A stretch of 36,967 nt of DNA from Candidatus Methanoperedens sp. (lineage in GTDB: Archaea > Halobacteriota > Methanosarcinia > Methanosarcinales > Methanoperedenaceae). Location: positions 1-36,967 of the forward strand of contig JAPZAV010000176.1 in assembly GCA_027460465.1 (NCBI GenBank). The letters are read 5' to 3'. This document shows positions 28 to 3,816 of this stretch, one piece after another; the stretch's first letter is position 1; the number at the start of each line of letters is the position of its first letter. The position numbers and the translations under genes were made by a program. The notes beneath the pieces were generated by a model, which was not told the DNA's origin, did not search any database, and worked only from the letters and a program-made list of their open reading frames with translations.

Positions 28-768
28 TTACTTGCTTCTGAAAGTATCGAGCAGCATCCTCACGTCTCCCGGTGGATAACCCGAATAGCTCTTGCTGAAA
101 TAACCAAAAACCTCCACAGAATCCTCAAAAAAACTTTTGATCTTCATTCCCCATTCCTCTATATCCCTGCTCCTATCTTTTTCAACTTTTCCAAGGGTCC
201 CCTTTATTTTATTCCTATCCCCTTCCCATCTAATATAGGTAAAATCAGTGGTTATGGTGTTCATCTGAGGCATCCATGGATGATCTATCAACGCAAGGGC
301 GACCCCATTATCTCTCAGCAGATCATAAAATTTCTCATCCAGCCAATTTTTATTCCTGACTTCGACCGCAAATCGTCTTTCTGGCAGACCTGCCAAAAAA
401 TCCTTCAATATTTCGAACTTTTCAGATTTGAACGCGGAAGGGAACTGCATAAGCAGAGGCCCAAGTTTATCTCCCAGTATTGACATATGTTCAATAAAGA
501 TCTCAACTTCCTCTTTACAATCCTGCAGCATTTTCAGATGCGTTATTTTGCGCGGAAACTTGGCTGTAAAAATAAAATCATCTGGTACATCTTCTTTCCA
601 GTTCCTCACAGTATCTCTGGATGGTATTCGATAAAATGTGTTGTTGATCTCAACAGTATCAAAATTCTTCACGTATTCATACAGCAGATCCTTTGACCCT
701 GAGGGATAAAAATTCCCTATCCAGAAATCATAACTCCATCCCATAGTGCCTATATGCATTTCTTCCAT
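28..768 (-). CDS. DUF72 (YecE-like) family protein
   Basis: The protein reads as a DUF72/YecE family member: an N-terminal IGTMGWSYDFWIGNFYP block, then VEINNTFYRIP and FTAKFPRKITH, and a TYIRWEGDR segment near the C terminus. The family is a TIM-barrel-like fold of unproven biochemical role. The track ORF begins at 807, but the ATG at 766-768 is preferred. It gives about 246 residues, lies one base after the ligase stop codon, and has GGGGTGAT just upstream. It is the last gene of the NHEJ operon, so it is probably co-transcribed with Ku and the ligase. A DNA-repair link is inferred from position only. Family call confident, function unknown. Confidence 0.85.
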   Translation of the reverse strand: MEEMHIGTMGWSYDFWIGNFYPSGSKDLLYEYVKNFDTVEINNTFYRIPSRDTVRNWKEDVPDDFIFTAKFPRKITHLKMLQDCKEEVEIFIEHMSILGDKLGPLLMQFPSAFKSEKFEILKDFLAGLPERRFAVEVRNKNWLDEKFYDLLRDNGVALALIDHPWMPQMNTITTDFTYIRWEGDRNKIKGTLGKVEKDRSRDIEEWGMKIKSFFEDSVEVFGYFSKSYSGYPPGDVRMLLDTFRSK

Positions 769-769
769 C

Positions 770-2158
770 TCAATCACCCCCTTTGAATAATAACCAGTTG
801 TTCTCACCTGCTTTCTTGAACTTTACGAGCACGTACCTTCCCTCCATCTTTTCCCCCTTGACTATGAACTCGATCTTATTCGCTTCCCAGATGATGGGCT
901 CGTATAAACCTTTATCCCATATCTTCACAGTCCCGGCCCCATACTGTCCTTCAGGGATTGTCCCTTCAAATTTACGATATTCCAGCGGATGGTCTTCTAC
1001 CTGCACAGCAAGCCTCCGGTCACCGCTTTTTTCTGGAACACCTTTAGGAACTGCCCAGCTCTTAAGCACCCCATCCCTTTCCAGTCTCAGATCGTAGTGG
1101 AGCCGGCGGGCATGGTGCTCCTGAACCACAAAGGATTTTCCCTTACCCTCTTCTTCCGACACAGGAGGCTCAGGTGTCCTGCTAAAATCCCGCCTGGCCG
1201 CATAGTCAGAAAGAGCCGGCCGTATCTGGTCGATCGTACATTCAAAAGGATTTTTGTCTTCCCTGAATCCTTTAAATACAGGAATACGAAGCTTTCCGTC
1301 ATCTGTTATGGACTGATAACCCACCTCGCACACAAGTTCGGGCCTTAACCAGGTTATTTCCCTGTCCGTATCCACTCCAGTAAGTGTTTTTTGCTCCACT
1401 TTATATTTATCCAGGGACAGTTTTAGATTTTCCCCGTCTTCCTGTGAAAAGCCTGTGCCGACTTTGCCGATAAAGACCGGTACTGCCGCATCATATAATC
1501 CAAGGATCAATGATCCAAAGGTCTTCTCCCTGTTACCTTCACCTTTAGTATAGCCGAAAATGACACAATCACATGTCTTTTCCTGCTTTATTTTCAGCCA
1601 GTAATTGCTCCTTTTTCCCGGTTCATATGAACTTTGCTTCTTCTTAGCCATTATACCTTCAAGACCTTTTCCCAGGGCGGCCTGATAATAGGCTTCCCCG
1701 GTCTTTTCAACAAATATAGAAAGGACAACGAATTTTCCTTCTTTCACACTATTCTTCAATATCCTCTTTCTCTCCATAAGAGGAATATCCAGAAGCTCCT
1801 CCCCATCCTTTTCCAGGATATCAAATATTATATAAGTAGCTGGAAATTTGCCAGACATATACGCGACCTCGTCCGGTTCGGTATTCTGTCTCCTCTGGTT
1901 GAGGATCTGGAAGTCAGCTTTTCCATCCTTCATAACAATTATTTCCCCGTCCAGTACCGTATCGCGGGTCAGATCATTCAGTTCTGAAAGTTCGGGAAAA
2001 CTTCCTGTCAATTCCTTATGGTTTCGGCTCCTGATACTGAGCTCTTCCTTAACATAACTGATAGCCCTTATGCCGTCCCATTTTACTTCAAAGATCCAGT
2101 CGTCAGAAGAAAATGGCGCATCTGCCGGATGGGCAAGCATCGGTTTATATTGTTTCAT
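770..2158 (-). CDS. ligD: ATP-dependent DNA ligase fused to LigD-type 3'-phosphoesterase
   Basis: This 462-residue protein has two parts. Residues 1 to about 310 are an ATP-dependent ligase core with the adenylation motif EVKWDGIR (Lys26), LDGEIIV, and an OB domain with FGSLILGLYD. Residues about 340-460 form a LigD phosphoesterase domain with HHARRLHYDLRLE, WAVPKG, EDHPLEY and EGTIPEGQYGAGTV, so the metal and phosphate-binding residues look intact. The enzyme should seal double-strand breaks after the phosphoesterase trims 3' ends. The usual bacterial LigD orders are Pol-PE-Lig or PE-Lig-Pol; here PE follows the ligase and the polymerase is a separate gene. Its start overlaps the Ku stop by four bases (ATGA), indicating coupled translation. 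Confidence 0.93.
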   Translation of the reverse strand: MKQYKPMLAHPADAPFSSDDWIFEVKWDGIRAISYVKEELSIRSRNHKELTGSFPELSELNDLTRDTVLDGEIIVMKDGKADFQILNQRRQNTEPDEVAYMSGKFPATYIIFDILEKDGEELLDIPLMERKRILKNSVKEGKFVVLSIFVEKTGEAYYQAALGKGLEGIMAKKKQSSYEPGKRSNYWLKIKQEKTCDCVIFGYTKGEGNREKTFGSLILGLYDAAVPVFIGKVGTGFSQEDGENLKLSLDKYKVEQKTLTGVDTDREITWLRPELVCEVGYQSITDDGKLRIPVFKGFREDKNPFECTIDQIRPALSDYAARRDFSRTPEPPVSEEEGKGKSFVVQEHHARRLHYDLRLERDGVLKSWAVPKGVPEKSGDRRLAVQVEDHPLEYRKFEGTIPEGQYGAGTVKIWDKGLYEPIIWEANKIEFIVKGEKMEGRYVLVKFKKAGENNWLLFKGGD

Positions 2159-2952
2159 TTGGCAAGCTGTTTAATCGTCTCTTGAAGGGCAACCATCAAT
2201 TCCTTGACTTCCTCTTTCTTTGGTACCTGGGCAACGAAGATCTCCCCCTTCATCTTCATTTGTATGAGCTTTTCTATCCTCTCTCTGTAACCATCCCTGT
2301 ACTCAGTTATATCAAATTCTCCGGAAAGTTCCTTTATTATCTTCCCGGCCAGTTCCATCTCGTTTTTTGAAGGATTTTTGAGTTTTGTAAGCTCTTCCAA
2401 TTCAACGGGGTTAGTAACCTCATTAGCATAATGCAGGGTTGTCAGGATTAAAGCCCCCTTATAAGCATATACAATTGCAGGATATTCCTTGGTCCTCAAT
2501 GTGACCTTCCCCAGTCCTGCTTTTCCCTCTTGCCGGATCACGGTCATCAACAAACTGTAGGCTTCTTCGCTTCTATCAGGGACAAGGATATATGACTTTT
2601 CAAAATATACCGGGTCGATGGAAAGCAAACTGATAAATTTATCGAGTTTGATCCTCTCGTCCGATTCGGGTCTTATGGCGTCCAGTTCCTCTTTCTTGAA
2701 AACAATGAACTCATTCTTTCGAATTTCGTATCCCTTTACGGTATCTTTCCAATCGATTACTTTCTCGTCTCTAATGCAGACCCTTTCGTATTTTAAGGGC
2801 TGCCCATCAACATTGTGCAATAGCCTGAATGAAAATGACTGATCACGGATCATGGTATAGAGCTTGACAGGGACATTGACAAGCCCGATCGTGATACTGC
2901 CGCTCCAGATTGACCTGCTGGACGGTTTGGCTGTGCTTTTTTCCTTTGCCAT
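2155..2952 (-). CDS. ku: Ku protein, DNA end-binding factor of NHEJ
   Basis: This is a 265-residue prokaryotic Ku. The N-terminal segment SIWSGSITIGLVNVPVKLY is the typical opening of the Ku core barrel. It is followed by FRLLHNVDGQPLKYERVC and, around residues 125-180, SYILVPDRSEEAYSLL and LTTLHYANEV. The length matches bacterial homodimeric Ku, with a short basic N-terminal tail and a lysine-containing C-terminal extension. Ku encircles DNA ends and recruits LigD. It sits between the polymerase and ligase genes, starts directly after the polymerase gene, and overlaps the ligase start by four bases. NHEJ is rare in archaea, so the operon was probably acquired from bacteria in the past; that is inference. 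Confidence 0.95.
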   Translation of the reverse strand: MAKEKSTAKPSSRSIWSGSITIGLVNVPVKLYTMIRDQSFSFRLLHNVDGQPLKYERVCIRDEKVIDWKDTVKGYEIRKNEFIVFKKEELDAIRPESDERIKLDKFISLLSIDPVYFEKSYILVPDRSEEAYSLLMTVIRQEGKAGLGKVTLRTKEYPAIVYAYKGALILTTLHYANEVTNPVELEELTKLKNPSKNEMELAGKIIKELSGEFDITEYRDGYRERIEKLIQMKMKGEIFVAQVPKKEEVKELMVALQETIKQLAK

Positions 2953-3816
2953 TTAATTCACTTCCAGTGACTGTTTATTTTCCATTAACCCCTCCCATGG
3001 ATCGCTCTTCCTTTTCAGGATAGTAAATATGTTGAACTCCTCAGGTCTTAATCCTTTCTTGAGTTCATTCCATTCAAGAGGTGTAGATACTGTTGCTTTC
3101 GGGGCAGCTCTCAGGCTGTAGGGAGCTATCATTGTCTTCCCCCTGGTATTCTGCAGGTAATCTATAAAGATCGTTCCAGGGTCTCTGGAGTTCCTGAATT
3201 CCGATACAACAAGCTCAGATTCTCTTGCCAGGAACTTCCCGAACTGATGAACGAATTCTCTTGTCTGCCTGAAATTATAACTTTGAATAATGGGCAGGAC
3301 AATATGCAGTCCTTTTTTCCCCGAGGTTTTGACAAATGATTTGAAGTTGAGTTCATCCAGTTTTTCTTTCAATGAAAGGGCGATTTCTATGACATCATCA
3401 AAGGAACAGGGAGGTTCGGGATCTATATCAAATAACAAAAGATCAGGTGTCTCATAATTATCGATCGTTGAAAGGGTGATGTTTATCTCAAGGGCTGCCA
3501 GATTCGCAAGCCATATCAGTGTATCCAGATCATTGCATACGATAAAGTTAATCTCGCGCTGTGCTGTCTCCGAGTATTTGTTGAAAGTTTCAACCCATGG
3601 TGGTATGCCAGGCGGCGCATCCTTTTCATAAAATCCTTCTTTGTCAATTCCATCTGGATATCTGTTCATGACTATTGCCCTGTTCTTCAGGAACTTAAGC
3701 ATCCGGGGAGCGATACTGATGTAATATTTGATGATGTCGGATTTTTCCAACCCCAACTCAGGATACAGTACCTTCTCCAGATTTGTGAATGATACTCTGG
3801 TGAGTTCGTCTATCAT
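2953..3816 (-). CDS. LigD-type polymerase domain protein (primase-polymerase, PolDom)
   Basis: A stand-alone LigD polymerase domain of the archaeo-eukaryotic primase superfamily, which fills gaps during end joining. Visible motifs are VLYPELGLEKSDIIKYY at the N terminus, the catalytic metal-binding FDIDPEPP, the SGKKGLHIVLP loop, and DYLQNTRGKTMIAPYSLR with the third acidic residue. The track ORF starts at 3888. The ATG at 3814-3816 is preferred because AAGGTGATC, which matches the archaeal anti-Shine-Dalgarno, precedes it and a TATA-like CTTTAATATT lies about 25 bases upstream. That gives 287 residues, usual for a PolDom. It is the first gene of the NHEJ operon and abuts Ku. Confidence 0.92.
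   Translation of the reverse strand: MIDELTRVSFTNLEKVLYPELGLEKSDIIKYYISIAPRMLKFLKNRAIVMNRYPDGIDKEGFYEKDAPPGIPPWVETFNKYSETAQREINFIVCNDLDTLIWLANLAALEINITLSTIDNYETPDLLLFDIDPEPPCSFDDVIEIALSLKEKLDELNFKSFVKTSGKKGLHIVLPIIQSYNFRQTREFVHQFGKFLARESELVVSEFRNSRDPGTIFIDYLQNTRGKTMIAPYSLRAAPKATVSTPLEWNELKKGLRPEEFNIFTILKRKSDPWEGLMENKQSLEVN

Follow-up and report, generated by a model that had tools for sequence, protein, structure and literature searches.

Does an archaeon that carries a full set of end-joining genes, with the ligase fused ahead of a phosphoesterase, owe them to a bacterial donor, or does it represent an archaeal lineage with a domain order of its own? Nonhomologous end joining (NHEJ) is thought to be rare in archaea, and its biochemistry comes essentially from one species, Methanocella. 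The question is raised by a stretch of 36,967 nucleotides of Candidatus Methanoperedens sp. (the window; contig JAPZAV010000176.1 of assembly GCA_027460465.1, positions 1 to 36,967), near the start of which a primase-polymerase (Pol), Ku and a DNA ligase (LIG) joined in a single frame to a 3'-phosphoesterase domain (PE) are encoded together in abutting or overlapping genes. All of these domains scored well above their curated cut-offs in a search of Pfam and NCBIfam profiles, and the locus is very probably a complete archaeo-prokaryotic NHEJ operon with a distinct archaeal architecture. The features are:

2953..3816, minus strand: Pol, a LigD-type NHEJ primase-polymerase in a gene of its own (PF21686, TIGR02778, likeness to 5DMU)
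2155..2952, minus strand: Ku, prokaryotic homodimeric type, 265 aa (TIGR02772, structure 9vnq)
770..2158, minus strand: Lig-PE, predicted ATP-dependent NHEJ ligase with a C-terminal 3'-phosphoesterase, 462 aa (single frame, full-length homologues)
1235..2143, minus strand: LIG domain (adenylation and OB), residues 6-308 of Lig-PE (TIGR02779, invariant residues)
779..1213, minus strand: PE domain, residues 316-460 of Lig-PE (TIGR02777, PF13298, invariant residues)
28..768, minus strand: DUF72, the operon's fourth gene, 246 aa if read from the ATG at 768 (PF01904, abuts Lig-PE)

Gene content and conserved residues

What can be read directly from the sequence is the gene content and order, the conserved motifs, the distribution and the clades. 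The genes run Pol, Ku, Lig-PE, DUF72 along the minus strand. The TAA of Pol abuts the ATG of Ku (2953/2952), the TGA of Ku and the ATG of Lig-PE overlap as ATGA, and the Lig-PE stop at 770 is followed right away by the best start of DUF72, at 768, which ends at 28. The original prediction of a complete NHEJ operon in an archaeon is borne out by these genes; its extent, 770-3816, was right at the Pol end and too short at the other, where the operon runs on into a DUF72 gene that had been missed. The Pol start at ATG 3816 is favoured by homologues, among which the N-terminus is conserved from this point onward, and a longer start at ATG 3888 was rejected since the upstream extension is not conserved. 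The whole genome has a single Ku gene.

Pol matched LigD_Prim-Pol (PF21686, 8.2e-84) and TIGR02778 (1.2e-75), its best solved relative is the NHEJ Pol of Methanocella paludicola (5DMU, 3e-54), and D154, D156, H195 and D243 (numbered from the 3888 start) are invariant in homologues. Ku matched TIGR02772 (Ku_bact; 1.8e-73, residues 13-259) and the Ku structure 9vnq (1.1e-46). Within Lig-PE, the ligase part matched TIGR02779 (NHEJ_ligase_lig) at 7.7e-81 (271.6 bits, cut-off 227.75) and the PE part matched both TIGR02777 (LigD_PE_dom; 1e-56, 191 bits, cut-off 144) and PF13298 (3.2e-41). DUF72 matched PF01904 at 8.6e-57 (193.1 bits, cut-off 25.3).

The nearest named relatives of Lig-PE come from Candidatus Methanoperedens assemblies, at no more than 84% identity, and full-length homologues are present in Methanoperedens, Bathyarchaeia and Methanomicrobiales. 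Since 29 further archaeal Lig-PE proteins align with it (53-84% identity) over the entire length, a sequencing or frame artefact can be ruled out as the source of the fusion. When these 30 proteins are aligned end to end, the ligase residues K26-W-D-G29, D70-G-E72, E167-G168, K189 and K191 are invariant, which we take to be motifs I, III, IV and V of ATP-dependent ligases. Also invariant are H348, H354, D356, R358, H390 and Y394 of the PE domain, which correspond to all six catalytic residues of the M. paludicola PE, namely H40, H46, D48, R50, H82 and Y86 (PMC4797286). The AlphaFold model of Lig-PE (mean pLDDT 88.6) is confident for both domains and of low confidence at residues 335-339; with a pTM of 0.68 the relative placement of LIG and PE is not firm, and a fold search of the PDB with the whole model gave only ligases among the matches listed, with nothing on the placement of PE.

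Domain order in archaea and bacteria

We searched PE-bearing genomes of Methanoperedens relatives, Halobacteriota, Thermoproteota, Planctomycetota, Desulfobacterota, Chloroflexota and Actinomycetota, and took the domain order from the loci fetched, which were partly picked by similarity to the Methanoperedens Lig-PE and cover a part of the PE matches. For Pseudomonadota and Bacillota, outside the survey, the usual orders were taken from the literature. The distinct archaeal PE-bearing proteins were LIG-PE (41), PE-LIG-POL (2), PE-POL (6, all from one genus), POL-PE (1) and stand-alone PE (64), and the bacterial ones PE-LIG (45), PE-LIG-POL (37), POL-PE-LIG (7), LIG-PE-POL (1), PE-POL (1) and stand-alone PE (65). 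The ligase thus precedes PE in 41 of 43 archaeal proteins that have both, versus 1 of 90 in bacteria, where PE comes first in the other 89. Frequent use of the ligase-first order by bacterial donors, which would have spoken against the prediction, is not seen in this sample. Nor is the LIG-PE arrangement peculiar to this genome, its carriers being Methanoperedens, Bathyarchaeia/Thermoproteota and Methanomicrobiales. The sole ligase-first bacterial protein of the sample is a planctomycete LIG-PE-POL (L030).

Bacterial LigD has LIG, PE and Pol domains homologous to those of the Methanoperedens operon and likewise works with Ku, but it is a single protein of the order PE-LIG-POL (Pseudomonas) or POL-PE-LIG (Mycobacterium), whereas here Pol lies outside the polypeptide and PE is C-terminal, not N-terminal, to LIG. 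The full-length LigD model TIGR02776 scored 218.7 bits on Lig-PE, under its cut-off of 373.2.

Other arrangements were seen in archaea. One Halobacteriota genus (f7 g25; L132-L137) has the PE-POL fusion adjoining separate Ku and LIG genes, the POL-PE fusion (L138) is 616 aa long, and in two Thermoproteota a PE-LIG-POL LigD that resembles the bacterial ones and is about 1000 aa long adjoins Ku (L211, L212). Stand-alone archaeal PEs, such as those of Methanosarcina barkeri and Korarchaeum with solved structures, share fold and family with the PE of Lig-PE but lack an attached ligase and lie outside Ku operons. The genome studied here has one of its own, a second PE on contig C127 (L142:5007-6119), immediately 3' of an endonuclease III gene, a position that suggests a role in base excision. 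In a thermoproteote (G556; L213:4991-6481) a stand-alone PE contains an intein (Intein_splicing 1.6e-14, LAGLIDADG_2 5.8e-32) adjoining the conserved FEG-IPEG motif.

Origin of the fusion

Separate trees of Lig, PE, Pol and Ku had been proposed together with the domain-order survey as a check on the operon. In the careful LIG tree the archaeal-type ligases stand apart from the bacterial ones (support 99/96), and 23 LIG-PE ligases together with one unfused ligase of Pyrohabitans (Hydrothermarchaeota) form one group (100/99). The Ku and Pol of LIG-PE operons likewise fall in archaeal groups. A constraint joining the planctomycete L030 to the archaeal LIG-PE proteins was rejected (AU p=1.3e-5), which points to a separate origin of the planctomycete protein. 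On these trees, one archaeal fusion event is the simplest and most likely reading: a PE gene would have been joined, once, behind the ligase gene of an old archaeal Pol-Ku-Lig operon. Through inheritance or transfer, the fused operon would then have spread among Bathyarchaeia, Methanoperedens and Methanomicrobiales.

That the operon was instead recently acquired from a bacterium, its LIG-PE order taken over as such or permuted from a PE-LIG-POL LigD, would fit the documented transfer of NHEJ genes between bacteria and archaea (PMC7719229), the bacterial-looking ligase of Methanocella and the existence of L030. Yet the ligases, Ku and Pol of these operons all sit in archaeal groups, the survey gave no bacterial donor with the same order, and its one ligase-first protein is the one that the constraint keeps apart. 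We regard such an acquisition as very improbable and as largely refuted already.

Methanocella offers the obvious comparison. M. paludicola has archaeal homologues of the same Pol, PE and Lig (Pol 5DMU, PE 5DMP), and these have been tested biochemically (PMC4797286). Genome G076 (L279) has a separate ORF each for PE, LIG and POL, as the prediction had stated, and they follow one another in this order; its Pol aligns with 5DMU from end to end, no difference being visible once past the tag, and its PE has 5DMP as best match, so G076 is M. paludicola or nearly so. Methanoperedens differs in having LIG and PE in one frame and an archaeal-type ligase, whereas two ligases of the Methanocella family were placed among bacteria. 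Methanocella was accordingly rejected as an unfused precursor, its ligase being in the bacterial group, and its NHEJ system is a different lineage from the LIG-PE operon. The fusion had been proposed to be either intermediate or independent, and it is the second term that fits: the fused proteins make up one widespread archaeal group, unrelated to L030, and are no step toward bacterial LigD.

Several observations weigh against this overall account of the operon and its fusion. The unfused Hydrothermarchaeota ligase lies inside the LIG-PE group, which may mean an older fusion that was split afterwards, or two fusions. The fused PEs cluster in the PE tree (SH-aLRT 91), and the same cluster includes PEs of Methanomicrobiales that are unfused in operons or fused to POL, and one bacterial PE; with 154 columns this tree is weakly resolved and identifies no PE donor. 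Finally, the operon seems dispensable, because the strain BLZ2 (G018; L033/L286) has lost most of Pol and Lig. It keeps Ku and PE, with Pol reduced to 67 aa and an in-frame deletion that joins the first ~20 residues of the ligase to PE; both records, apparently of one strain, have these deletions, and an assembly error is possible. Among 31 genomes of the genus, this one included, the full LIG-PE frame is present in 13, and most also have a stand-alone PE.

Could the ancestral archaeal operon already have had the fused LIG-PE, the unfused forms being later splits or losses? These forms are the Hydrothermarchaeota LIG with a separate PE and the Pol-Ku-PE operons of Methanoregula, without a ligase. 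The Pyrohabitans/Hydrothermarchaeota operon (L027, L028) has the Pol-Ku-Lig order of Methanoperedens and close Ku and Lig proteins, but PE is a separate upstream gene and the ligase is unfused; the position of this ligase inside the LIG-PE group would be explained by a split. The Methanoregula operons had been considered as a pre-fusion state and this was rejected: a loss of the ligase is likelier because their Ku nests beside that of the LIG-PE Methanomicrobiales (SH-aLRT 94). BLZ2, in which the bulk of the ligase has been lost in frame and PE is left, is a further case of the kind. On the other hand, the Ku tree sets Hydrothermarchaeota outside all LIG-PE operons (96), a constraint holding the 23 LIG-PE ligases together costs just 6.7 log-likelihood units and is not rejected (AU p=0.31), and older-branching unfused ligases are found in Theionarchaea and in the f7 family. 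We therefore consider an ancestral fusion rather unlikely, and prefer a single joining in an operon that was at first unfused.

DUF72 beside the end-joining genes

The fourth gene is recurrent. Of 39 archaeal LIG-PE loci, 26 carry DUF72 directly 3' of the fused gene and on its strand (27 of 40 counting the frameshifted L017), and at none of 17 loci does it directly follow an unfused archaeal ligase. The overlapping or abutting position is kept across Methanoperedens and Bathyarchaeia. Within Methanoperedens, the linked subtype is present in 10 of the 13 LIG-PE genomes, adjacent every time, and in 1 of the 18 other genomes (G028, unlinked). The archaeal linked copies, with that of G028, form one clade in the careful DUF72 tree (99/97), apart from the unlinked copies of the same genomes. 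In bacteria DUF72 adjoins Ku/LigD in Geomobilimonas, several Nitrospirae, Abyssobacteria, Poribacteria, Armatimonadetes, ANGP1, Planctomycetota and Chloroflexota (for example beside 9 of 29 PE-LIG genes, in a sample chosen by similarity). These proteins fall in several other clades, requiring several separate gains or losses, and the linked gene is the only DUF72 of the genome in G352, G353, G913 and G917. With one to few copies per genome of ~3 Mb, we estimate a chance adjacency at well under 1% per locus. Taken together, the trees and gene neighbourhoods suggest that DUF72 has been repeatedly recruited beside end-joining genes. We did not find this link in open-licence papers, and subscription journals or preprints may hold reports; DUF72 has been described as enriched near archaeal and bacterial polB2 (PMC11791011).

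Two further arrangements of the family were observed. In a thermoproteote (G376; L163:702-1872) a stand-alone PE overlaps a DUF72 that belongs to the NHEJ-linked clade; the 3.3 kb of locus sequence contains neither Ku nor a ligase. Contig C66 of the genome studied here carries two more DUF72 genes as a divergent pair (L280), an arrangement that recurs in other Methanoperedens genomes.

In a Foldseek search of the PDB the DUF72 model is a TIM barrel matching 1ZTV, 1VPY and 1VPQ at E ~1e-15. The matches outside the family are TIM barrels too, mainly sugar epimerases (also isomerases), at E 2e-4 and weaker, and neither endonuclease IV nor UV-damage endonuclease is among the 50 matches listed. TM1631 (1VPQ; YecE family), of the same family and fold, has been modelled as a DNA-binding, endonuclease IV-like lesion binder, its function being predicted only (PMC3828134); it has no NHEJ link in the literature searched, whereas the Methanoperedens DUF72 sits in an NHEJ operon. 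From gene linkage and fold, we propose that DUF72 is a recurrent partner that may process DNA ends or lesions. It is a lead only that it is a nuclease, because no endonuclease appears among the fold matches listed.

It might also be a passenger that sits next to the other genes and plays no part in NHEJ: it is absent from 13 of 40 archaeal LIG-PE loci, it is common without NHEJ (9 of 14 control genomes), and its closest solved folds outside the family are those sugar enzymes. The conserved same-strand position, the separate bacterial clades adjoining Ku/LigD and the bacteria in which the linked gene is the sole or one DUF72 copy argue otherwise, and we find a passenger unlikely. We put forward tentatively, as a proposal that falls somewhat short of an even chance, that prokaryotic NHEJ has a true fourth component in DUF72, recruited repeatedly and acting with Lig-PE as a nuclease on lesions or ends. 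If true, LIG-PE-DUF72 would be an archaeal module for healing and sealing ends not described before.

A model for end joining and its meaning

The enzyme activities proposed here are those of studied relatives. Ku would bind and hold the broken ends, the separate Pol would fill gaps, using mainly ribonucleotides, excess 3' ribonucleotides as well as 3' phosphates would be taken off by the PE domain, and the LIG part would seal the nick, a division of labour established for bacterial LigD and M. paludicola (PMC4797286). The fusion could plausibly pass a healed 3' end directly to the sealing site, coupling both steps. By analogy with these systems, the operon most likely encodes ordinary Ku-dependent end joining, with the domains arranged in a new way. 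A main role of Lig-PE and DUF72 in base or ribonucleotide excision repair, and not in break joining, would have a precedent in the mycobacterial LigC complexes, since LigC and Prim-PolC are reported to take part in base excision repair in mycobacteria (PMC5663958). Stand-alone PEs also occur without Ku, here directly after an endonuclease III gene, and the modelled lesion binding of the DUF72 family would suit such a role. Ku is nevertheless in the operon at almost all archaeal LIG-PE loci for which the sequence reaches far enough, an exception being L055, where Pol is present and Ku was not detected, and excision repair as the main role seems quite improbable to us. Ku-dependent joining of breaks is the function we favour.

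Under this reading, the LIG-PE operon would be a second, archaeal lineage of NHEJ, common in uncultured groups and with a domain order of its own. Lig-PE, a compact enzyme of two domains, would lend itself to studies of how 3' healing is coupled to sealing, and would provide a natural test of whether LigD domain order matters. The DUF72 link is a more novel lead than the variant in domain order, and may give a widespread and long-uncharacterised family a concrete, testable role in double-strand-break repair.

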